From the NCBI GenBank assembly GCA_903913285.1, contig CAIWKO010000006.1, positions 1-40,401 of the forward strand: a stretch of DNA of 40,401 bases. The letters are read 5' to 3'. Below, in pieces: positions 24,696 through 40,401 of this stretch (its first letter is position 1; the number at the start of each line of letters is the position of its first letter). The notes below the pieces were generated by a model that was not told the origin of the DNA, did not search any database, and was given only the letters and a program-made list of their open reading frames with translations. This DNA is from an uncultured Bacteroidales bacterium (GTDB taxonomy: Bacteria > Bacteroidota > Bacteroidia > Bacteroidales > CAIWKO01). The position numbers were made by a program, and so were the translations under genes.

Positions 24696-25071
24696 TCCAA
24701 TTAGAAGTTCGGAAAAACAATATGGCAATGTTACGTTTCCATATAGAACTTCGGTAATGCTATATAGAACTTCGGAAAAGCTATATGGAAATATCATAAA
24801 TCCATATAGAACTTCGGAAAAGCTATATGGAAATGTCATAAATCCATATAGAACTTCGGAAAAGCTATATGGAAATGCTTTAATTCCATATAGAACTTCG
24901 GAAAAGTTATATGGAAATGCTTTAATTCCATATAGAACTTCGGAAAAGCTATATGGAAATGCTATGACTCCATATAGAAGTTCGGAAAAGCTATATGGAA
25001 ATGTTACGTTTCCATATAGAAGTTCGGAAAAGCTATATGGAATTGATAAAGTTCATAATGGAAACGTAACA
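24696..25071. repeat. 42-bp hairpin repeat array with 14-bp boundary inverted repeats
   Basis: Eight consecutive units start at 24696, 24738, 24801, 24843, 24885, 24927, 24969 and 25011. All are 42 bp except the second, which is 63 bp through a 21-bp internal duplication; the first is degenerate. Each unit has arms CCATATAG and CTATATGG around a loop AACTTCGGAAAAG, an 8-bp stem. The arm of one unit can also pair with the next (CTATATGGAA / TTCCATATAG, 10 bp where the spacer ends in T). Spacers are variable. TGTTACGTTTCCAT at 24729-24742 and its exact inverse at 25058-25071 bound most of the array. Unlike CRISPR, units are contiguous and there are no cas genes. Open frames across it on both strands follow from the multiple-of-three period. 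Confidence 0.93.
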
Positions 25072-25198: not shown

Positions 25199-26668
25199 TC
25201 AGAACTGCACCTTTAAGTTTGCAGCGCCGAGCTTGATAAGATCGTTATTGTTGAGTTTTTGTTTGCTCACTTTAGTTCCGTTAACAAAGGTGCCGTTGGT
25301 GCTGTTGTTGTCAACTATAAACCAGTTGCCGCCTTCATTCACCAGCGAAGCATGGTTGCCCGACACGGTGGTTTCGGGAATCACCACATCATTGCCGGCG
25401 TTGCGCCCAATGGTCATGTTCATTTTGTTGATGGGGAAATTTTTCGAGAAAGTGCCTGAGCTAACCATCAAAGTGGGAGTTCCGCCTCCGCCTCCAATAA
25501 TGGTGCGTTTCAGATCGAACTTCTGGGCTTCCGGTGAAGGAGGCACCTGAGTGCGTTGATTGACCCCCTGACGCATTTGTTCCTGAAGTTGAATGTTTCG
25601 TTCTTCAAGGTTCTTCAGGCGGTTGCGTTCTTCCGCCTTGGCTTTTTTGCCTTTATTCATCATTAATATTATCACCACCACAATTCCGATAACAACCACG
25701 CCAATGATAAGCAACATCCACCAGTATTTTTTCAAGACTGATTCCTGACCTTCGGGCACGGTATATGTTCCGCTCACCTTTTCGCCTTTGTATAAAACAT
25801 CAAAGCTGTTGGTTTCGCCCGACTGGGTAGCGTCGAAAGTAAGTGTGTAGCCCGTGCCGGTTGCTGCAACTGCTTTTTCGGCAGCGCCCATAAAATCGGT
25901 GATGTCAGAGCTAATTTCGGAAGCACTTTTGGCCGACGAACTTTTGCCGTTGGTTTTATCGCTCAGTCGGATAAAATTGTCGGCAGCATATTTATTATTG
26001 GTTCTGTAGGTAATGGTGTAGATAGGAATATTGAACTTGGTCGATTTTTCGATGCAGTCTTCGGCCTTGATGGGCGATTTGCTGTTGTTGATGGCTGCCG
26101 AAATCACGATGAGAATTTTGTTGCCGGTCAGATCCTTTTTCGAATTAAAAAAATCCAGACATTCATAAATTCCCTTAAACACGTCGGCAACACGGTTTGT
26201 ATCGCGTGCAGCAACAATCTTGTTCTGGACTTCGTCTTTCAAAATGCCTTTATCATTTGTGAATTCTGCGCTCAACACATTAAGGGTTTTCCCATCGCTG
26301 TTGGCTTTGCCAAAATAGCAAACATTCACTTTGTCATTTTCGGTTATGGTTCCCAAAGCAGAGATCACAGCCGTTTTAAACTGGTCGATAGCAGCGCCAT
26401 GGGTATAACCCGAAGCTTCTATCAAAAAACAAATGTTACGGCCGCCGCCTCCCGAAGTGTTGTTTTCTTTGGCAAACGTGAACGCTTCTTCTTTATCTTT
26501 TTCATAGACCTTAAAATCGCTTTGCTGAGCTTCTCCCTTATCCTGAAGGGTGACGCTTACATTTATTTTGGGATATGCCGTGTTGTCGACATTCGAAATT
26601 GTTATTTTTTGTGCAGAGACGTATGTGAACATCCCGAGCAACATTATCAGTGAAAGTAATTTTTTCAT
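25199..26668 (-). CDS. Membrane protein with periplasmic vWA-like domain, TM helix and cytoplasmic FHA domain
   Basis: A 489-residue protein. Parts in order: signal peptide (1-19, cut after VSA); a beta-rich segment; a von Willebrand factor A-like domain (about 76-260); a TM helix (about 315-337, WWMLLIIGVVVIGIVVVIIL); a charged coiled-coil linker (343-368); and a C-terminal FHA domain (398-489) with intact phosphothreonine-binding residues IGR (Arg422), SGNH (Ser436, His439) and NSTNGTFVNG. The vWA metal site is degenerate: the DxSxS motif reads E-A-S-G-Y, and the TDG position reads S-A-A, so metal-dependent ligand binding is doubtful. LKRTII just before the FHA may be a phosphosite. Encoded 30 bp downstream of another FHA protein, so one operon is likely. 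Confidence 0.88.
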   Translation of the reverse strand: MKKLLSLIMLLGMFTYVSAQKITISNVDNTAYPKINVSVTLQDKGEAQQSDFKVYEKDKEEAFTFAKENNTSGGGGRNICFLIEASGYTHGAAIDQFKTAVISALGTITENDKVNVCYFGKANSDGKTLNVLSAEFTNDKGILKDEVQNKIVAARDTNRVADVFKGIYECLDFFNSKKDLTGNKILIVISAAINNSKSPIKAEDCIEKSTKFNIPIYTITYRTNNKYAADNFIRLSDKTNGKSSSAKSASEISSDITDFMGAAEKAVAATGTGYTLTFDATQSGETNSFDVLYKGEKVSGTYTVPEGQESVLKKYWWMLLIIGVVVIGIVVVIILMMNKGKKAKAEERNRLKNLEERNIQLQEQMRQGVNQRTQVPPSPEAQKFDLKRTIIGGGGGTPTLMVSSGTFSKNFPINKMNMTIGRNAGNDVVIPETTVSGNHASLVNEGGNWFIVDNNSTNGTFVNGTKVSKQKLNNNDLIKLGAANLKVQF

Positions 26669-26698: not shown

Positions 26699-27244
26699 TT
26701 AAACTGTACGGAAACGGAAAATGGTATTGCCAACCTTTATGGTATCGCCATCGGTAAGGTTGCCTTCTTCTTTAAACTCATCGTTGACGAAAGTTCCGTT
26801 GGTCGAAAACTCATCTTTAAACTTAAAAATGCCCATACGATACAATATGGTAAGATGTTTAACCGAAACTGTGTGGTCGTTGGAAACAATAATATCGCAA
26901 GCCGGATCGGAACCCACAATGTTGCGACCTTCGTAAAGTTTAAAATCGGCTCCGTTAGCATCAATGGTGAACGAAACCAGCCAGCCTACAAGCTTTCTTC
27001 CCGAACGTTCGGCCGAAGAGTTAAACACAGGTTCTTCGGCATTTGCACCCTGAAATATTTGGGTCTTGTTCAGATCGTTTCCGGCAGCACTGCCCGAAAA
27101 TATCTGGGTTTTATCGTTTTGATTTCCCGAAGGATTATCGATTTTTGTTTTATCCATATTAGTTTGGTTTTTGGGGCAATACGGACATTCGTTCAAATTG
27201 TCCTGATAATAATGCCCGTTAATACATACTTTAAATTCACTCAT
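26699..27244 (-). CDS. Soluble FHA protein with N-terminal zinc-ribbon-like motif and repeated KT(Q/K)I motifs
   Basis: A 181-residue cytoplasmic protein. The N-terminus has C-x3-H (Cys7, His11) and CPYC (Cys20, Cys23), a zinc-ribbon-like knuckle. Three similar threonine motifs follow: DKTKID (Thr33), DKTQIF (Thr46) and NKTQIF (Thr61), which look like tandem phosphoacceptor sites. A C-terminal FHA domain spans about 85-181 and keeps SVKH (Ser127, His130) and FSTNGTFVND, but the phosphate-binding Arg after the first Gly is Ser (VGS, residue 112). It could therefore bind phosphothreonine weakly, or be itself the phosphorylated ligand of another FHA protein. It is the first gene of a two-gene operon with the vWA-FHA gene. 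Confidence 0.86.
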   Translation of the reverse strand: MSEFKVCINGHYYQDNLNECPYCPKNQTNMDKTKIDNPSGNQNDKTQIFSGSAAGNDLNKTQIFQGANAEEPVFNSSAERSGRKLVGWLVSFTIDANGADFKLYEGRNIVGSDPACDIIVSNDHTVSVKHLTILYRMGIFKFKDEFSTNGTFVNDEFKEEGNLTDGDTIKVGNTIFRFRTV

Positions 27245-28945: not shown

Positions 28946-29036
28946 GTTACGATTTACTGATTACTAGTTATGAGTTTTTTAGTTCAGTTATTGAATCGTA
29001 AGACCGGTAAAACTATTTGGATAAAAAACGAAAGCA

Positions 29037-29497
29037 TTCCAATGAGTTGGGAAAGGGTTCAAGCTATTGGGGAAAGGGTTCAAGCGAGAAGGGTAAGGGT
29101 TCAAGCTATCGGTGAAAGGGTTCAACCTATCGGGGAAAGGGTTCCAACGAGTTGGGAAAGGGTTCAAGCGAGTGAGGAAAGGGTTCCAACGTGTGACGAT
29201 ATCGTTCCAGCATGTGACGATATCGTTCCAAGGTGTGACGATATCATTCCAACGATTTAGGAAAGGGTTCCAACGAGTCGGGAAAGGGTTCCAACGAGTC
29301 AGGAAACCGTTCCAACGAGTCGGGAAAGGGTTCCAACGGGTGATGAACCCATCCAACGGGTCGGGAAAGGGTTCCAATGAGTCAGGAAACCGTTCCAACG
29401 AGTCGGGAAAGGGTTCCAACGAGTCAGGAAAGGGTTCCAACGAGTCGGGAAACCATTCCAACGAGTCGGGAAAGGGTTCAAGCGGGTCGAAAAAGTG
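29037..29497. repeat. 21-bp tandem repeat array, 22 units
   Basis: Units start at 29037 and every 21 bp to 29497, except one 20-bp unit at 29331. The consensus starts TTCCAACGAGTCGGG and ends AAAGGG. Variants include a first block with TTCAAG, three successive units (29184-29246) with GTGACGATATCG in place of the second half, and several with AAACCG. GGAA-AGGG-TTCC across unit junctions is a short inverted repeat. The single-base deletion shifts all reading frames, yet the array goes on unchanged, which argues against coding despite open frames on both strands. It fills most of the 588-bp gap between the GT22 gene and the MerR gene. The flank 29498-29533 is a decayed continuation. Confidence 0.93.
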
Positions 29498-29533
29498 TTC
29501 AAACTTGAAAAATCAGTTGAAAAACTTGAGAGG

Positions 29534-32443: not shown

Positions 32444-34441
32444 ATGAAAGTACAAAAAAACAAAAATGTTCTTTACAAAAGTAAGAACAAGCAACAAAAA
32501 CCACATCAACCGTTCAAAAGCCAAAGCTTTGCCGAGATGCTATCAAATATTTCTTCGAATTCAAGTTCGAATTTTCGAATTTTATTAGCATTTCTGTTTT
32601 TTGCTTTAGCTTTTTTGCTTTATTCTAATACGCTCTACCACGGCTATGCGCTTGATGATGATCTGGTTTATAAATTAAACAAATCTGTTCAAAAAGGTAT
32701 TTTAGGAATTCCTGAGATATTTACAACAACCAATATGTATGGATTTAACGGACAGAATTACGGTGCTTACCGTCCGTTGACACAAAGTATTTTTGCAATA
32801 GAATATCATTTTTTTGCTCAAAACCCACACGTAAATCATTTAATAAGTGTTTTGATGTATGCTTTGTGTTGCGCTTTATTTTTTATCTTAATGTTAAAGT
32901 TTTTTGAAAAACAAAAGCTGATAATACCCATATTTATTACACTCATTTTTACTGTTCATCCTATACATACAGAAGTTGTAGCAAACATAAAAAGTCGTGA
33001 TGAAATTATTGCTTTCTTTTTTGGATTTCTACTTACTTTTCTGTTTCTGTACAAATATGTGGGTTCAAGAAAGATCAAATACCTGATATTTAGCATTATT
33101 TTTTATTTTCTAGGACTTCTGAGCAAAGAAAATATTCTTACACTTTTCCCCTTCATTCCGTTGAGTCTTTACTTTTTTAGAGAGGTGAAATGGAAACAAA
33201 TCTTTAGGATAAGCGCTTTGTTTTTAATTCCGGTTCTTTTATTTATTGGAATGCGAACGGCATTTATCGAATCCGCCAGCGATAAAATAGCTTTTATTGA
33301 TAACTTTATCCACCTGATTCCCGATTTTGCAACCAAATCGGGTACAATCTTGGTGGTTTTTTTACTTTATTTCAAGCTTTCTTTTTTCCCGTTTCCATTG
33401 TCCTATGACTATTCTTTTGCACAAATTAGTCATACTTCTTTGTTCGCACCAGTTTCGTTGTGCAGTTTGATCATCTTGATTTCTCTTATAGTTATTGCTA
33501 TATATTTCTTTAAAAGAAAAAGCGTTTTGTCATGGTCTATTCTGTTCTTTTTAATTACTATTTCTATTTACCTTCATATTTACGCAGATCTTGCTGCTAC
33601 AGCTGCTGAACGATTTTTGTTTTTGCCTTCGGTTGCTGTTTCAATTGCTGTTATTTTTCTATTAATCATGATTGCCGATAAGTTTCTTATCACAAAAACT
33701 GCAAATCAATTCATTACTGTTGCCGTATTAACAATTTGTATGGTATTTATGATCAAAACGTTTACACGAAATTTTGCATGGAAAAATAACGATTCTCTGT
33801 TTTTGACTGATATAACTCATGCCCCTAAAAGCGTACGCATGAACAAATCAGCAGGTGATATTTATCTAAATTGGGCCATAAAAGAAACTGATGAGGTTAA
33901 AAAAACACAATATTCACGTACTGCATTGACATATCTATATAAAGCCTACAATATCTACGCTGATTATCCGGAAAATATTTTGGATATTGGAACTGCATAT
34001 TTTTATCTTGAAAAGTATGATTCTTCACAATACTATTGGAATAAATTCAAATTATTGGATCCAAAATCACCTCGTAATCAAGAAAACAGAACTTTTTTAA
34101 TTAGCGGGTTTTCATCAGAAGCTTTGAAATTGAGAGAAAAAGGGCAAATAAAAGAATCGGAAGCAGTGTTTGAAAAAGTGCTCAAATTAGATTCTTTAAA
34201 TGCGCCTGCATTTTTTAATATCGGAATGCTAAATGTAACTTTGTTAAATTACCCAAAAGCTAAGGCAAATATGCAAAAGGCTATTTCTATTGATTCATTA
34301 AACTCAGAATTTTGGTATAATTTAGGTGGCTTTGCCTATACAATAAAAGATTATAATCTTGCACGAAAAGCATGGCTAAAAACCTTACAGATAAATCCAC
34401 AGCATGCTCAGGCAAAGCAAGGGTTAAGTGCAATAAAATAA
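32444..34441 (+). CDS. TMTC-like GT-C membrane protein with C-terminal TPR repeats
   Basis: A 665-residue polytopic protein with a 43-residue basic cytoplasmic start and about eleven helices. A soluble TPR region follows (about 480-665; FNIGMLNVTLLNYPKAKANMQKAI and FWYNLGGFAYTIKDYNLARKAWLKTL are clear units). Motifs resemble the TMTC/O-mannosyltransferase group: DDD (71-73) in the first loop, YRPLTQ (109-114), HPIHTEVVANIKSRDE (172-187) and SKEN (227-230). Eukaryotic TMTCs O-mannosylate cadherins; bacterial homologues are mostly uncharacterised. The start sits one base past the NamZ stop. With a GT22-like enzyme 4 kb upstream and Ser/Thr-rich adhesins at both window ends, protein O-glycosylation is a reasonable guess, no more. 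Confidence 0.85.
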   Translation: MKVQKNKNVLYKSKNKQQKPHQPFKSQSFAEMLSNISSNSSSNFRILLAFLFFALAFLLYSNTLYHGYALDDDLVYKLNKSVQKGILGIPEIFTTTNMYGFNGQNYGAYRPLTQSIFAIEYHFFAQNPHVNHLISVLMYALCCALFFILMLKFFEKQKLIIPIFITLIFTVHPIHTEVVANIKSRDEIIAFFFGFLLTFLFLYKYVGSRKIKYLIFSIIFYFLGLLSKENILTLFPFIPLSLYFFREVKWKQIFRISALFLIPVLLFIGMRTAFIESASDKIAFIDNFIHLIPDFATKSGTILVVFLLYFKLSFFPFPLSYDYSFAQISHTSLFAPVSLCSLIILISLIVIAIYFFKRKSVLSWSILFFLITISIYLHIYADLAATAAERFLFLPSVAVSIAVIFLLIMIADKFLITKTANQFITVAVLTICMVFMIKTFTRNFAWKNNDSLFLTDITHAPKSVRMNKSAGDIYLNWAIKETDEVKKTQYSRTALTYLYKAYNIYADYPENILDIGTAYFYLEKYDSSQYYWNKFKLLDPKSPRNQENRTFLISGFSSEALKLREKGQIKESEAVFEKVLKLDSLNAPAFFNIGMLNVTLLNYPKAKANMQKAISIDSLNSEFWYNLGGFAYTIKDYNLARKAWLKTLQINPQHAQAKQGLSAIK

Positions 34442-34586: not shown

Positions 34587-36347
34587 ATGATTGGTCAGCA
34601 GATTCTAAACTACAAGATTGAAAAACTTATTGGCGAAGGCGGCATGGGAAACGTGTATTTAGGCATACATACCCATATAGGCAGAAAAGTTGCCATTAAA
34701 GCACTCAATCCTGTCTTAGCAAAAAATCCTGACATACGAGAACGTTTTAAAAACGAAGCTTCCACCCTATCGCAATTGCATCATCCAAATATCGTCACAC
34801 TTTTTGATTACGTGGAAACCGATCAGGGCATTTTTTTGGTGATGGAATACGTGGAAGGAAAACAGCTTGACCAATATATAGAAACGATTACAGGACCTAT
34901 TCCTGAAGAAAAAGCTATACCGTTGTTTACGCAGATCCTCGATGGCGTTTCATACGCTCACCAACGGAATGTGATTCACCGCGATATAAAACCTTCTAAC
35001 ATCATCATTACTAGCGAAGGCAAAGCTAAGATATTGGATTTCGGTATCGCAAAGATTCTTTCGGAAAGCAACCATAAACTTACCAAAACCGGCACCAAAC
35101 TGGGTACGGTTCTTTTTATGAGTCCTGAACAAGTGAAAGGTGTTGAAGTTGACAAACGCACAGATATTTATTCACTTGGCATAACTCTTTTTCAAACATT
35201 AACAGGAAAAAGCCCTTTTGACGAAGACCAAAGTGAGTATGAAGTTTATAAAAGGATAGTTGAAGAACCATTGCCTGATGCGAAAACATTTTATATTGGG
35301 GTGAGCGACCGTATGGAGCTTATTCTCAAAAAGGCAACTGCTAAAAACGCTTCCGAACGATTCAGCGATTGTGATAAATTTAAACAAGCTTTGGAAGATT
35401 TAAGTTTTGGACAAAGTACCTCAAAGAAAGCAAAAGCTAAATCAGCAAGAACTCCTGTATCTAATAGACCTGTTAAAAAACCTTCAGCAAAGGTTAATAA
35501 TAAACGTAAAGGTTGGACTATTTTCTGGTCAATCTTTTTTGGTATGCTTTTTTCAACTGCATTGGTAGTAACAACGTACAAACTTATATTCAGCGGGACT
35601 GAAAAGTATGTGCTTGCAAATAAACTCTGGATACGTTCTTCTGAAGCATTAACGGGGAACAATGGAGTTGAATTGCTGAAATTCGGTGAAAAACTGAATG
35701 TATTGGAAACTGACAGCAAACTTGACGCAAACGGTCTTCGATGGGCTAAAGTAAGATCTGAAGATGGTAAGGAAGGTTACACAGTAATAGATTATTTGGG
35801 AAGTGAAGATGAGTACGAGCGTATCAATGCTGTGTTTAAAGATAACGCACTGAAGGATACACCCGTCATATATAAGAAAGCAGTAATCGACTATTTGAAT
35901 TCAAACGGTATGATCGATAAAGATAACTCCAGCAATTGGAGTATTAATGGTAATTTATCAGGAGCCGAATTTAACAATTATGTTTTCGCTGATTTCAATC
36001 AGGATAGTAAAGACGATTATGCTTGTGTGGCAAATAATGGAGATAAATATCTGCTGCTTGTTTTTGTGAGTGGCAGTGTATTGGATGCTACAATTAAAAT
36101 TGCAGAGAACGAAGACCAAAAGATTTCTATCAAAAAATTACCAAGAGGCACAAAATATTTTACGGGAAAATATACTACCGAAAACCGCATTGATTGGTAT
36201 GGTGAAATATATACAGTAAACGTAAAAGTTTATGATATGCTCAAAAGCGATGCCTTAGTTATTACGGAAAAACAAGGAAACAAAAGCAAAGTCTATACTT
36301 ACGATAATAATCATAACGATTTTATTTTAACTGCCCTTCCTCAATGA
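34587..36347 (+). CDS. Transmembrane Ser/Thr protein kinase with periplasmic SH3-like domain
   Basis: A 586-residue Hanks-type kinase. Cytoplasmic catalytic domain (8-270): glycine loop GEGGMGNV (16-23), Lys38 in VAIK, Glu57, HRDIKPSN (131-138), DFG (151-153), a threonine-rich activation loop (KLTKTGTKLGT), and SPE instead of APE (179-181). All catalytic residues are present, so it should be active. A basic Ser/Lys linker (275-308) leads to one TM helix (about 311-333). Outside, an SH3b-like domain (338-402: NKLWIRSSEAL, KFGEKLNVLE, GYTVIDYLG) is followed by a domain with a DFNQDSKDD calcium-site-like loop. The sensor side is not PASTA, so the cue may differ from muropeptide binding. The stop overlaps the next gene's ATG by 4 bp (ATGA), which couples the two. 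Confidence 0.93.
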   Translation: MIGQQILNYKIEKLIGEGGMGNVYLGIHTHIGRKVAIKALNPVLAKNPDIRERFKNEASTLSQLHHPNIVTLFDYVETDQGIFLVMEYVEGKQLDQYIETITGPIPEEKAIPLFTQILDGVSYAHQRNVIHRDIKPSNIIITSEGKAKILDFGIAKILSESNHKLTKTGTKLGTVLFMSPEQVKGVEVDKRTDIYSLGITLFQTLTGKSPFDEDQSEYEVYKRIVEEPLPDAKTFYIGVSDRMELILKKATAKNASERFSDCDKFKQALEDLSFGQSTSKKAKAKSARTPVSNRPVKKPSAKVNNKRKGWTIFWSIFFGMLFSTALVVTTYKLIFSGTEKYVLANKLWIRSSEALTGNNGVELLKFGEKLNVLETDSKLDANGLRWAKVRSEDGKEGYTVIDYLGSEDEYERINAVFKDNALKDTPVIYKKAVIDYLNSNGMIDKDNSSNWSINGNLSGAEFNNYVFADFNQDSKDDYACVANNGDKYLLLVFVSGSVLDATIKIAENEDQKISIKKLPRGTKYFTGKYTTENRIDWYGEIYTVNVKVYDMLKSDALVITEKQGNKSKVYTYDNNHNDFILTALPQ

Positions 36348-37639
36348 AAATAATATTTATTGGACGAAACACCAATAACGATGTGGTTATTGCCGACCCT
36401 TATGTTTCAGGGCAACACATATCTATTACTCAAAATGACGATGGCAGCTTTAGAATCTCTGATTTAGGTTCACGAAACGGCACCTACGTTAATGGGAAGA
36501 AAATAGTTCAGCAGATGCTGTATTATAACGATATCGTAAAAATTGGTGAACATATCATTCCTTGGCAGGAATATTTTCAGCAAAATGCAGGCATCTACAC
36601 CGGGAAAATTATCAAACAATATTCAATAGGTAGAAACATCGATAATAATATTGTTATCTCTGATGATTATGCTTCTGGAAAACATGCTCTGCTGTCATTA
36701 ACTGACCTAGGTGAAGTTATTATTCAGGATATCGGTTCTACAAACGGTACCTTTGTAAACGATTGCAAAATAACAAACATTCTTATCAATCCCGGTGACA
36801 GACTTCGGATTGCCAGAACTCCTCTAATTTGGACAGACTATTGTGAACCACAAACTAATAAAAACGGAAGGAGCAATCAAACCAACAAAACTCGGTTTTG
36901 GATAATCATTGCTGCAAGTATTGCAGCAGGAGTTTTGCTAATGATTTCTGCATGGTTTATCGGTGTGAAAATTGGAATTATCAAGGGTTCCAACACAGAT
37001 TCTATACCTTCAGATACAATGCCTGTTTTTTCTAATTTAAACGAACTGGTTAAATATACCGAAAAGGCAGTTTTTTTGATTGAAACTGACAACAATAGCG
37101 GACAAGCTGTTGCGTATGGTACCGGATTTTTTGTGAGCAGCAATGGTGTCGGCATTACGAATGCACATGTTTTGCGGAACGGCTCCGGTTGGAAAATCAA
37201 AACATACAGCGGACAATCTTATTCCATAGAAAAAGTTCTAAGAACAAACGATACATACGATTACTCTATTTTCAAAGTTATTTCTGATGAGAGATTTACG
37301 AATTTAAAAATATCGGATACTCCTCCTGAAAAAGGTCAGGATATTTATGTGTTGGGAAATCCTCAAGGAATAGAAAGCACACTTACAAAAGGCATTGTTT
37401 CCGGGTTAAAGGGAGGAACAGAGGAAGATGTTATTGAAGGCAAATTTGGCAGTGGCAATACTTACATCCAGATTGATGTGGCCATTTCGCATGGAAGTAG
37501 TGGTAGCCCTGTAATGAATATGAAAGGAGAAGTCATTGGCGTTGCTACACTTTCGTTTGAAGAAGCCGATTGTAAGAATTGCAATTTTGCCTTAAATATC
37601 GATATGGTCCGTTCGGATGTGGAAAGTGTAATGAAATAG
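36344..37639 (+). CDS. Tandem-FHA transmembrane trypsin-like serine protease
   Basis: A 431-residue protein. Two cytoplasmic FHA domains come first: residues 2-75 (FIGRNTNND, SGQH, SRNGTYVNG) and 93-165 (SIGRNIDNN, SGKH, STNGTFVND). Both keep the phosphate-binding Arg, Ser, His and Asn. One TM helix follows (about 185-207), then a periplasmic HtrA-like trypsin domain (238-431) with an intact catalytic triad: His275 in TNAHV, Asp306 in YDYSIFKV and Ser386 in GSSGSP. There is no PDZ domain, unlike DegP. I infer that phosphorylation by the upstream kinase, with which its start overlaps by 4 bp, controls the protease from inside. Two C-terminal cysteines (C410, C413) could form a disulfide. Domain order and coupling make this unusual. 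Confidence 0.92.
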   Translation: MKIIFIGRNTNNDVVIADPYVSGQHISITQNDDGSFRISDLGSRNGTYVNGKKIVQQMLYYNDIVKIGEHIIPWQEYFQQNAGIYTGKIIKQYSIGRNIDNNIVISDDYASGKHALLSLTDLGEVIIQDIGSTNGTFVNDCKITNILINPGDRLRIARTPLIWTDYCEPQTNKNGRSNQTNKTRFWIIIAASIAAGVLLMISAWFIGVKIGIIKGSNTDSIPSDTMPVFSNLNELVKYTEKAVFLIETDNNSGQAVAYGTGFFVSSNGVGITNAHVLRNGSGWKIKTYSGQSYSIEKVLRTNDTYDYSIFKVISDERFTNLKISDTPPEKGQDIYVLGNPQGIESTLTKGIVSGLKGGTEEDVIEGKFGSGNTYIQIDVAISHGSSGSPVMNMKGEVIGVATLSFEEADCKNCNFALNIDMVRSDVESVMK

Positions 37640-37950: not shown

Positions 37951-40401
37951 ATGGAAACAAAAGAATCGACACAAAATTGTAAAACCGGATTCAATTTTCG
38001 CTTTACAATTTTTATATCAACAATGCTTCTTTTGTTTTTATTTCATAAAAATGAAGTTGAAGCACAGTTTATTATTGCAGGAAATGCATCATCTACAGGA
38101 GGAGGGTGTTATACATTAACCAACAACATATCACAATCGGGCGCGATTTGGAATTCAACCATGATTAATTTGACGCAGCCTTTTGATATTACTTTAATAT
38201 TAAATTTTGGATGTACTAATGCTGGGTCTGATGATTATACATTATCTCCCAATTGTGGGGGAGATGGAATGTCTTTTATTTTGCAATCATTAAATACTGG
38301 AGTTTCAGCAACAGGTGGTGGCGTAGGTTTTCAAGGTATAACACCTTCATTGGGTGTTGTTATGGATGATTACTCTGCAAATCCAACTGACCCACCTTAT
38401 GATCACATTTCTATAAATCAGAATGGAGACATACTTCATGGGACAACCAACGAATTTGTTTCTTATACGAGTGCTGTTGGTTTTCCTGCTGAAATAGAGG
38501 ACTGCAATAATCATACTTTCCGCTTCAAATGGACTCCGGGGTCACCTAACGGAACCATCCAAGTTTGGTTTGACGGGACCTTGACCTTTACTTATACAGG
38601 CGATATTGTTACAAATATTTTTGGTGGCAACCCAAATGTTTATTGGGGTATAAGTGCATCTACAGGGGCCTGTTGGAATTTGCAAACAGTTTGTATGGCT
38701 ATTGAATCGGATTTTTCTAATACAACAGTTTGTGTTGGACAACCAACAGTATTTACGGACCAAAGTATTAGTAGTACCCCAATAAGTACATGGTTGTGGA
38801 ATTTTGGTGATGGATCACCCACATCTTCGCTGCAAAATCCGACCCATATTTATGCTAATCCCGGGACATATAATGTTCAACTTACAGTAACAAATTCTGC
38901 TGGACTAACTTCAACAATCTCCAATGCTGTCTCAGTATTGGGTCTTGAAATAACTACTTCAGCTTCTCCCACCAATATTTGTCAGGGAGGTTCAGTCACA
39001 TTATCTGGAACCATTATTTCACATCCTACTACTACTATTCAAAATCCATCTTTTACCAACACAACAGATTATTCGATTCCTGATGCTGGTGTAGCTTCAG
39101 GCTGGACAGGAACAACCGGTTCTTATGTTCAGTCAAATATTACAGTTTCTGGAATATTGACTGGTTGGAGTATAAAAAACATTTGCCTTAATATTAACCA
39201 TACATACGACGGAGACATCATTGTATATCTTAAGGATCCCTGTGGAAATATTGTCAGCCTTATTAATTCCGGTTGTTATGGGACAAATTTTACAAATACT
39301 TATTTTGCACCAATCGCCACAACAACTATCAGCTCTGGAAGTAGCCCTTATTCTGGAATCTGGATTCCATCAGGTGGAACAGGCATATGGACAATTTTGC
39401 AAGGGTGTGCCACTCCAAATGGAACATGGAGTTTGTTATTAGGGGATCAATATGCTGCGGATGTTGGGACTTTGCTTGATTGGACAATAACATTCAATAA
39501 CCCAGTACCAACTACCTACACATATATCTGGACTCCAGGAAATATCACAAATACTCTTACTCCTATTGTGACTCCTACTGCCACGACTACCTATACATTA
39601 ACTGGTAATGATTCTTATGCTTGTGCTTCCAGCATCACAGTAACCGTAACAGTCGATGCATCTACTACTATTTCCGCAACAGCAACACCGGATACGATCT
39701 GTGCCGGACAATCATCTGTTTTGAGTGCCTCTGGTGCATCTACCTACACTTGGATGCCTGGAAATTTATCAGGAAGTTCTGTTACTGTAACTCCTTTGAC
39801 ATCGACTATATACACTATTACAGGAACCACGACAGGTTGTACAGGATCTACAACAGTTTCTGTTACTGTAAACTCTAATATTGTTATTACTACCACTGTC
39901 TCACCAACTTCAATATGCCTTGGAAATTCATCTTCCTTAAGTGCAAATAGTGGTGTTGTAGGAGCAGTTTACACCTGGATGCCCGGAAATTTAATCGGAA
40001 CCCCTGTTTCTGTTTCACCAGCGACTAATACCACTTATACCGTTACAGGAACAGCTTCAGGATGCACTGGCACAGCAACTTTATCGGTATCAATAAATCC
40101 CGATTTGGTTATCACAACATCAGCTTCTCCAGCCTCAATATGTAATGGGACTTCATCTTCCCTAACTGCCACAAATAGTGTCTCGGGAACAACATATTCA
40201 TGGATGCCAGGCAATTTAAGCGGAACTCCGGTATCCGTTTCACCGGCTTCTACCACTGTATATACTGTGACAGGCAATGCCTCCGGTTGTACAGGAACTG
40301 CTACTGTTACAGTAACCGTAAATCCGATTCCTTTTGTAACTGCTACTGCAACCTCTACAACAATATGTAATGGCTCAGCAACTTCACTAAATGCAAGCAG
40401 T
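37951..40401 (+). CDS. Giant secreted protein: L-type lectin, PKD, P/Homo B, Ig-like repeats (3' partial)
   Basis: The frame is open from the ATG at 37951 to the right edge (817 codons). Signal peptide: a basic start, hydrophobic core TIFISTMLLLFLF and likely cut after VEA (residue 38). Domains: an L-type legume-lectin-like domain (39-250; GDGMSFILQS, ISINQNGDI, FRFKWTP, IQVWFDGTL, YWGISASTG); a PKD domain (about 255-333; TVCVGQPTVFTDQS, WNFGDGSPTSS, TYNVQLTV); a P/Homo B-like domain (about 364-518; SIPDAG, INHTYDGDIIVYLKDPCGN, TWSLLLGDQYAADVGTLLDW); then at least four Ig-like repeats of about 75 residues (YTWMPGNLSG, VYTVTGNASGCTGTATV). Secretion by T9SS is likely, but the C-terminal signal lies outside the window. 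Function: surface carbohydrate binding is inferred from the lectin domain. Confidence 0.88.
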   Translation, partial: METKESTQNCKTGFNFRFTIFISTMLLLFLFHKNEVEAQFIIAGNASSTGGGCYTLTNNISQSGAIWNSTMINLTQPFDITLILNFGCTNAGSDDYTLSPNCGGDGMSFILQSLNTGVSATGGGVGFQGITPSLGVVMDDYSANPTDPPYDHISINQNGDILHGTTNEFVSYTSAVGFPAEIEDCNNHTFRFKWTPGSPNGTIQVWFDGTLTFTYTGDIVTNIFGGNPNVYWGISASTGACWNLQTVCMAIESDFSNTTVCVGQPTVFTDQSISSTPISTWLWNFGDGSPTSSLQNPTHIYANPGTYNVQLTVTNSAGLTSTISNAVSVLGLEITTSASPTNICQGGSVTLSGTIISHPTTTIQNPSFTNTTDYSIPDAGVASGWTGTTGSYVQSNITVSGILTGWSIKNICLNINHTYDGDIIVYLKDPCGNIVSLINSGCYGTNFTNTYFAPIATTTISSGSSPYSGIWIPSGGTGIWTILQGCATPNGTWSLLLGDQYAADVGTLLDWTITFNNPVPTTYTYIWTPGNITNTLTPIVTPTATTTYTLTGNDSYACASSITVTVTVDASTTISATATPDTICAGQSSVLSASGASTYTWMPGNLSGSSVTVTPLTSTIYTITGTTTGCTGSTTVSVTVNSNIVITTTVSPTSICLGNSSSLSANSGVVGAVYTWMPGNLIGTPVSVSPATNTTYTVTGTASGCTGTATLSVSINPDLVITTSASPASICNGTSSSLTATNSVSGTTYSWMPGNLSGTPVSVSPASTTVYTVTGNASGCTGTATVTVTVNPIPFVTATATSTTICNGSATSLNASS
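39652..40401 (+). repeat. In-frame Ig-like coding repeats of about 225 bp
   Basis: Three full copies of about 73-75 codons and the start of a fourth are visible, each with TICxGxSSSLxA, YTWMPGN, TVYTVTG and SGCTGTATV. A more diverged copy precedes them. The array goes on past the window edge. Confidence 0.8.

Follow-up and report, generated by a model that had tools for sequence, protein, structure and literature searches.

In the genome of an uncultured Bacteroidales bacterium (GenBank assembly GCA_903913285.1), a gene for a membrane-bound Hanks-type Ser/Thr kinase overlaps a gene for a protein in which two FHA domains are joined, through a single transmembrane (TM) helix, to a trypsin-like protease. 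Both genes lie in a stretch of 40,401 nucleotides, hereafter the window (forward strand of contig CAIWKO010000006.1, our contig C6), which belongs to a 4.0-Mb assembly that is 97% complete. We propose that they are part of a trans-envelope phosphothreonine (pThr) module, in which linker pThr controlled by the kinase and a PP2C phosphatase would be read by the FHA pair and would recruit, cluster or set the extracytoplasmic protease, and on balance we consider this reading probable. It is built on the computed domain architecture, the intact catalytic triad, the gene linkage, the extracytoplasmic signs in the protease family, the enrichment of threonine motifs in partner linkers, and the other outputs found in related clusters.

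In outline, we infer that the targets of the membrane kinase are the Thr residues of [KR]T[QVK][IV] motifs, which recur in the cytoplasmic linker of an FHA adaptor protein (and of a vWA-TM-FHA protein), and that the PP2C phosphatase opposes it. On the cytoplasmic side, the FHA pair of the FHA2-TM-trypsin protein would then bind the phosphorylated motifs, or else the phosphorylated kinase itself, and this binding would recruit, cluster or allosterically set the attached protease and so affect its activity. The ectodomains, SH3-like on the kinase and LysM on the phosphatase, may sense the state of the envelope or peptidoglycan.

A kinase gene overlaps a gene for an FHA-joined protease

The kinase of 586 amino acids (aa) is encoded at 34587..36347 on the forward strand, as given by the list of open reading frames (ORFs) and by Pfam, with its kinase domain at 34611-35393 (Pfam Pkinase, E=4.8e-60). 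A motif search found the core motifs GEGGMG, AIK, HRDIKPSN, DFG and MSPEQ, so that the Pkinase domain, the catalytic Lys, HRD and DFG that define Hanks-type kinases are all present. One TM segment near residue 310 precedes an extracytoplasmic region of about 250 aa. No PASTA repeats were found for the kinase in the Pfam tables, and the NCBIfam model of PASTA-type PknB/Stk1 kinases (NF033483) matches residues 9-306 only, with 310.6 bits against a cut-off of 450. An earlier note on this DNA had described an intact Hanks kinase with an SH3-like sensor; the kinase stands, whereas the similarity of the ectodomain to SH3_3 is sub-threshold (21.6 bits, under the curated 27). The AlphaFold model of the kinase, with a mean predicted local distance difference test (pLDDT) score of 36.7 from an alignment of three sequences, was discarded.

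The kinase stop and protease start share the four bases ATGA (36344..36347, forward strand). Because the identical 4-bp overlap recurs in two further genomes of the genus, G001 and G003 (G numbers denote genomes, G000 being that of the window, and L numbers denote fetched loci), the pair is no chance juxtaposition. Promoter-like sites are at chance level (13 vs 14.0 +/- 3.8 expected) and terminator-like sites number 5 vs 2.0 +/- 1.3 expected; none was used in the interpretation. Immediately upstream of the kinase lies a gene for a TPR membrane protein that is glycosyltransferase-like by eye (32444-34441). The envelope-related neighbors, namely NamZ and this TPR gene, were rejected as parts of the module since different genes flank the kinase in G001. 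Downstream of the protease, 37951-40401 holds the start of a gene that continues past the window end; its product is a large, secreted protein with repeats that by eye resemble lectin and PKD domains.

The second gene (36344..37639, forward strand; 431 aa) was delineated from the ORF list, Pfam, alignment and AlphaFold. Its two FHA domains (36356..36547 and 36620..36811; together E=5.9e-36 in Pfam) each show the FHA fold residues GR, SxxH and NG, and AlphaFold models both well (10-residue block means mostly 79-92). The model of FHA domain 1 (residues 1-81) finds its best fold match in 3gqs (Z=12.7, root-mean-square deviation 1.9 over 78 residues). Hydropathy places one TM helix at residues 187-207 (36902..36964), within a modeled helix at 182-209. 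A Trypsin_2 domain follows at 37118..37543 (E=7.8e-27), with the catalytic residues H275, D306 and S386, which are kept in all 33 aligned proteins (32 distinct), FHA-less relatives included; the protein is thus predicted to be a trypsin-like serine protease. This assignment comes from sequence profiles only, because the AlphaFold protease half was unusable (block means about 22-45); given this poor model, the absence of a trypsin row from the fold search is uninformative for that half. No PDZ family appears in the Pfam table of the protein (E<=0.001). In these respects, including the coordinates, the 4-bp overlap, the two intact FHA domains, the single TM helix, the intact protease and the absence of PDZ, the earlier note was borne out. 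Its further suggestion that FHA might stand in for PDZ as the regulator is conjectural; relatives of the protease that lack FHA also exist.

The note had also placed the FHA domains inside and the protease outside, and the relatives agree with it. In nine of ten FHA-less homologues, which are 358-403 aa long, a lipobox-like signal was seen by eye in the 45 N-terminal residues (L276 has none in that stretch); therefore, the protease domain should lie outside the inner membrane. Cytoplasmic FHA domains and an extracytoplasmic protease are thus supported, as a prediction from sequence.

This layout, a single TM helix with an HtrA-like domain outside, could also be read from the outside in: the trypsin-like domain would be a DegS-like sensor of envelope damage, and the FHA pair would relay its state to a cytoplasmic phospho-network. 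The closest PDB relatives of the protease domain by sequence are HtrA/Deg proteases, and the NCBIfam DegS model (TIGR02038) matches at E=4.9e-17, though with 62.1 bits against a cut-off of 422.95. However, the lack of PDZ and the invariant triad, which fits a working enzyme, speak against a mere sensor, as do the nature of FHA as a reader module and its presence on M48 peptidases or exporters in other clusters. We regard the outside-in reading as decidedly unlikely.

Partners and linkage in related genomes

A whole-genome search found a single Pkinase match in the window genome. Its four FHA matches fall in three proteins, each of them encoded on the window contig: the protease and two proteins encoded on the reverse strand. 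One of these is the FHA adaptor (26699..27244), with a Zn-ribbon-like N-terminus (CxNGHxY...CPYCPK, by eye), a linker carrying DKTKI, DKTQI and NKTQI, and an FHA domain. The other is a vWA-like-TM-FHA protein (25199..26668), with a signal peptide (by eye), a vWA-like region, a TM segment, and RTQV and KRTII in the linker between the TM segment and the FHA domain. This protein matches no Pfam vWA model; its homologues in L170 and L171 do (1.3e-15 and 2.9e-16). The one PP2C_2 match lies on contig C4, in a protein with a hydrophobic segment followed by a C-terminal LysM region (two stretches). Four of these proteins (kinase, phosphatase, protease and vWA-like protein) thus seem to share one layout, with a phospho-module in the cytoplasm tied to a domain beyond the inner membrane. 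The earlier idea of a two-gene circuit therefore holds for the linkage of kinase and protease and fails as a self-contained pair, since they come with an FHA adaptor and a PP2C phosphatase, to which some lineages add a vWA-TM-FHA protein.

The gene immediately downstream of the PP2C gene (G000:C4:2375-4522, locus L075) encodes a TPR protein that also matches PMT_2 and, below threshold, TMTC. Tandem arrays, whose unit is 21 bp (or 42 bp) long, occur in two genomes of the genus (window 29030-29504 and 24702-25042; L071 2-262 and 9548-9670; L075 401-743); among them are arrays that closely follow the protease gene in G001 or closely precede the PP2C gene. Their unit sequences differ, and they produce repeat ORFs that look spurious.

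Within the genus, the kinase, adaptor and FHA2-protease are present in G000, G001 and G003. In G002 (93% complete), no Pkinase and no adaptor match was found, and the best protease match covers part of the protease domain only; in three of the genome searches, matches to the FHA part alone or the protease part alone were followed up in part. Pkinase matches number one in G001, two in G003 and four in G409. Absence from G002 through incomplete assembly is possible; one missing contig would not explain it, because the adaptor and the kinase-protease pair lie on separate contigs in G001 and G003.

Among 395 genomes of the phylum, a match from the first FHA into the protease domain occurs in at least six: the window genome and five Chlorobiaceae metagenome-assembled genomes (MAGs). 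This is a lower bound, as the three-row profile missed the subtype II described below, although G409 was in the sample. In the five Chlorobiaceae, the order is kinase, FHA2-TM-trypsin, adaptor and PP2C, the adaptor orthologue following the protease gene immediately. Adaptors were found in 12/395 phylum genomes at E<=1e-15 and 17/395 class genomes at E<=1e-12, the two samples overlapping in part. We assign the family of G409 to Bacteroidaceae on the grounds that G841 and Phocaeicola massiliensis have an identical protein. In this family, 23 of 251 genomes have a protease match at E<=1e-25, 13 of them with the FHA-bearing form and 10 with an FHA-less form; G986 has both, giving 11 FHA-less loci.

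In total, 23 FHA2-TM-trypsin loci were compared (22 distinct, L191 being the same as L270): three from the window genus, five from Chlorobiaceae, L080 (a MAG labeled Clostridia), L191, and 13 from the family of G409. In L268 the script found one FHA domain, and the second is visible in the alignment. A kinase lies within 2,358 bp of the FHA2-protease at all 23 loci, and a PP2C gene within 717 bp at 20. At 19 loci the fetched stretch also holds an FHA adaptor gene on the same strand, at distances of up to 4,730 bp. The exceptions are the window genus, with PP2C elsewhere and the adaptor 9.1 kb away on the opposite strand or on another contig, and L282, on a contig of 8.5 kb. In the window genus, Chlorobiaceae, L191, L267-L272 and L282, the kinase closest to the protease gene lies upstream of it; in L080 and L262-L266 it lies downstream, past the adaptor and PP2C; L233 has one on each side. 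Since gene order differs between lineages, the linkage has outlived rearrangement.

On the contrary, none of the ten FHA-less homologues from one family of genomes has a kinase, PP2C or FHA gene in the fetched stretches; for four of them (L274, L277, L280 and L283) the stretch on one side is shorter than 5 kb. The same is true of L234, whose FHA-less relative of 862 aa (L234:7762-10347) has a long N-terminal region, a TM-like segment and a trypsin-like domain. The contrast in kinase linkage, 23/23 vs 0/10, would arise by chance with a probability near 1e-8 if the loci were independent, but they are related by descent. The earlier note had named protease homologues lacking a linked kinase as evidence against its proposal; we find the FHA-bearing form always linked, and the 11 FHA-less homologues with no kinase in their fetched stretches. 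A broader protease search gave 80 loci, nine of which match from the first FHA onward, and all nine were examined. Of the other 71, 18 were annotated: an FHA match occurs in none, and a kinase match in the stretches of L088 and L111. A distance script run on seven of these 18 found a kinase in one (L088, 6,056 bp).

A cluster of a kinase and a protease could also serve in defense against phages or in another biological conflict, with the protease as the effector. According to PMC7159879, kinase and trypsin domains are found in conflict systems; PADLOC kinase models (PD-T4-6, MAD6 and others) and RT-Protease_XI match here by domain, and two ORFs beside the Phocaeicola cluster (L087:702-4372) resemble DNA cytosine methyltransferases by eye. 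However, many different kinase models are matched simultaneously, which may be the case for any kinase of the Hanks type; PADLOC has no model that matches the adaptor or the vWA-like protein, and the protease domain is predicted to be extracytoplasmic. We therefore hold such a role to be very improbable. In a phage collection, 11 records gave partial matches, mostly HtrA/Deg-annotated or unannotated, and none spans 80% of the query. We do not call the protease plasmid-borne: the sole match of 80% or more is in a Phocaeicola massiliensis record labeled plasmid, and the identical protein is on a 3.1-Mb contig in G841.

Candidate phosphosites and FHA readers

The adaptor linkers are rich in [KR]T, with 122 occurrences in 39 proteins against 30.3 +/- 5.0 in shuffled linkers (2,000 shuffles, maximum 50). 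These adaptors include ones without the Zn-ribbon-like start (L195-L198, L200, L201, L206 and subtype II). In the 119 cases with enough following sequence, the next residue is often Q (38), V (17) or K (10), and the second is often I (51), V (20) or P (13); by eye, D or N often precedes the motif. No such enrichment was found over the 22 whole FHA2-proteases (66 vs 74 +/- 8 shuffled). We infer that the [KR]T motifs of the adaptor and the vWA-like protein are phosphosites. A class-level family, f150 (L195-L198, L200, L201 and L206), has compact trios of adaptor, TM-FHA protein and PP2C, the adaptors repeating DPxxTQ-like motifs; no kinase match was found in the fetched stretches of these trios.

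As for the readers, all three proteins of the window genus carry GR, SxxH and NG in FHA1 as well as in FHA2. In Chlorobiaceae, GR is kept in both domains (5/5) and FHA2 has all three motifs; FHA1 of L067 has SG for NG.

Several observations weigh against the proposed module. In subtype II (L191/L270, L233, L267, L268 and L269), GS or GT replaces GR in both FHA domains; because the Arg is lost, pThr binding is doubtful there, and the earlier claim that the FHA domains bind pThr, in keeping with the residues of the window protein, is not safe for all members. The same replacement affects FHA2 alone in L271, L272 and L282, single changes from GR to GK occur in L263 and L266, and the window adaptor's own FHA domain has GS and no GR. 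The [KR]T count takes in close relatives and some linker ends that reach into the FHA domain, and the 23 loci share descent and are not independent trials. In the window genus, the adaptor, kinase and PP2C genes are dispersed, and G002 keeps PP2C where the other parts were not found, so that PP2C is not exclusive to the module. Finally, positive charges flanking the TM helix favor FHA-in at 10/23 loci (4-6 vs 1-3 in the window genus), are tied at 7/23, and are opposite at 6/23 (L191, L266, L269, L270, L272 and L282); these mixed counts do not settle the topology.

It should be mentioned that subtype II, in which neither FHA domain has the Arg that contacts pThr and yet linkage to the kinase and PP2C remains, would suit constitutive assembly domains, with the kinase, phosphatase, adaptor and protease in a fixed envelope complex and phosphorylation regulating something else. 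On the other side, the GR of both domains throughout the window genus and Chlorobiaceae, and the enrichment of KT motifs in the partner linkers, speak against such a complex. We consider a fixed complex unlikely, and prefer the reading in which FHA binding depends on pThr.

Other FHA-joined outputs and known systems

Three sister clusters encode FHA-TM-M48 metallopeptidases with HExxH (L202:5497-6714, L203:14200-15570 and L205:2880-4247). These clusters also hold the adaptor, PP2C, the kinase and a TM-FHA protein (which matches vWA in L202 and L205 but not in L203), and have no FHA2-trypsin gene within the fetched stretch. Envelope peptidases of two unrelated folds, trypsin and M48, are thus joined to FHA domains, and no other observation hints as strongly that the output of the module is proteolysis, as opposed to a coincidence of the trypsin fold. 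L169, L170, L173, L202, L203 and L205 also encode large proteins with two or three FHA domains; in the two that were tested (L170 and L202), Pfam confirmed ABC ATPase and permease domains. Because an FHA3-ABC exporter is near an M48 gene in L170, and an FHA2-ABC exporter near FHA-TM-M48 in L202, one may ask whether the protease trims a product exported by such transporters, in a secretion or maturation module. The window genome has no FHA-ABC exporter, its FHA matches being confined to the three proteins above, and no cargo gene was identified; we hold the trimming of an exported product to be very unlikely.

The closest studied relative of the module is pknF-Rv1747. According to PMC3908365, this is a two-gene operon of Mycobacterium tuberculosis in which the kinase positively modulates the output, and PMC9312465 reports that phosphorylation by PknF promotes condensation or clustering of the FHA-linker-FHA region of Rv1747. 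Both systems pair a Ser/Thr kinase with a membrane protein bearing two cytoplasmic FHA domains, and the window FHA1 model matches Rv1747 FHA-1 and FHA-2 with Z of 10.8 and 11.2. By analogy with this clustering, we favor a mechanism in which multivalent pThr recruits or clusters the protease; gating would be a variant of it. Unlike PknF-Rv1747, however, the window output is a predicted extracytoplasmic protease on a protein with one TM helix and no ABC domain, not an exporter, and the adaptor, vWA-TM-FHA protein and PP2C accompany it; FHA2/3-ABC proteins are found in sister Bacteroidota clusters (L170 and L202).

PppA is the phosphatase of the threonine phosphorylation pathway of the type VI secretion system (T6SS). 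In that pathway, as described in PMC3953482, the kinase PpkA and a pThr-reading FHA protein control an envelope machine. The tie of a kinase and an FHA protein to the envelope is thus shared, whereas the window-linked output is a protease. No Tss family was found among the 16 window ORFs scanned with Pfam, and the TagH/Fha model TIGR03354 gives 37 bits against a cut-off of 120.25.

GarA/OdhI and FhaA/FhaB of Actinobacteria are small FHA proteins whose N-terminal Thr motif is phosphorylated by kinases. The OdhI and FhaB models of NCBIfam match weakly, below cut-off, and unlike these proteins, the window adaptor has a Zn-ribbon-like N-terminus, several KT motifs and an FHA domain without GR. The protease shares an HtrA-like trypsin-fold catalytic domain, by sequence, with HtrA/DegP/DegS and MarP, and differs from them in its cytoplasmic tandem FHA domains and lack of PDZ; the Do model TIGR02037 (98.5 bits vs 416.2) and the MarP model NF033740 (64 bits vs 250) both fall below cut-off. 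Searches of open-licence PMC papers gave no recognized description of an FHA-TM-protease beside a kinase, or of such a cluster in the phylum. The module is a variant of known kinase-FHA modules, with a protease as its predicted output.

To our knowledge, the phosphothreonine-to-envelope routes described so far end in exporters, secretion machines or cell-wall enzymes. A protease joined to FHA domains, or M48 in the sister clusters, would add periplasmic proteolysis to the envelope outputs under phosphothreonine control. More tentatively, in a reading that we place somewhat short of probable, one [KR]T phospho-adaptor, written by the kinase and erased by PP2C, would address interchangeable FHA-tethered outputs (trypsin-like, M48 and ABC exporter) across Bacteroidota and green sulfur bacteria; if so, envelope proteolysis would come under cytoplasmic phosphothreonine control. 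The cluster gives defined candidate phosphosites and readers in gut Bacteroidaceae, and it suggests roles for the Hanks kinases, FHA proteins and PP2C proteins of Bacteroidota. Bacteria may, in this way, control envelope proteolysis from inside.

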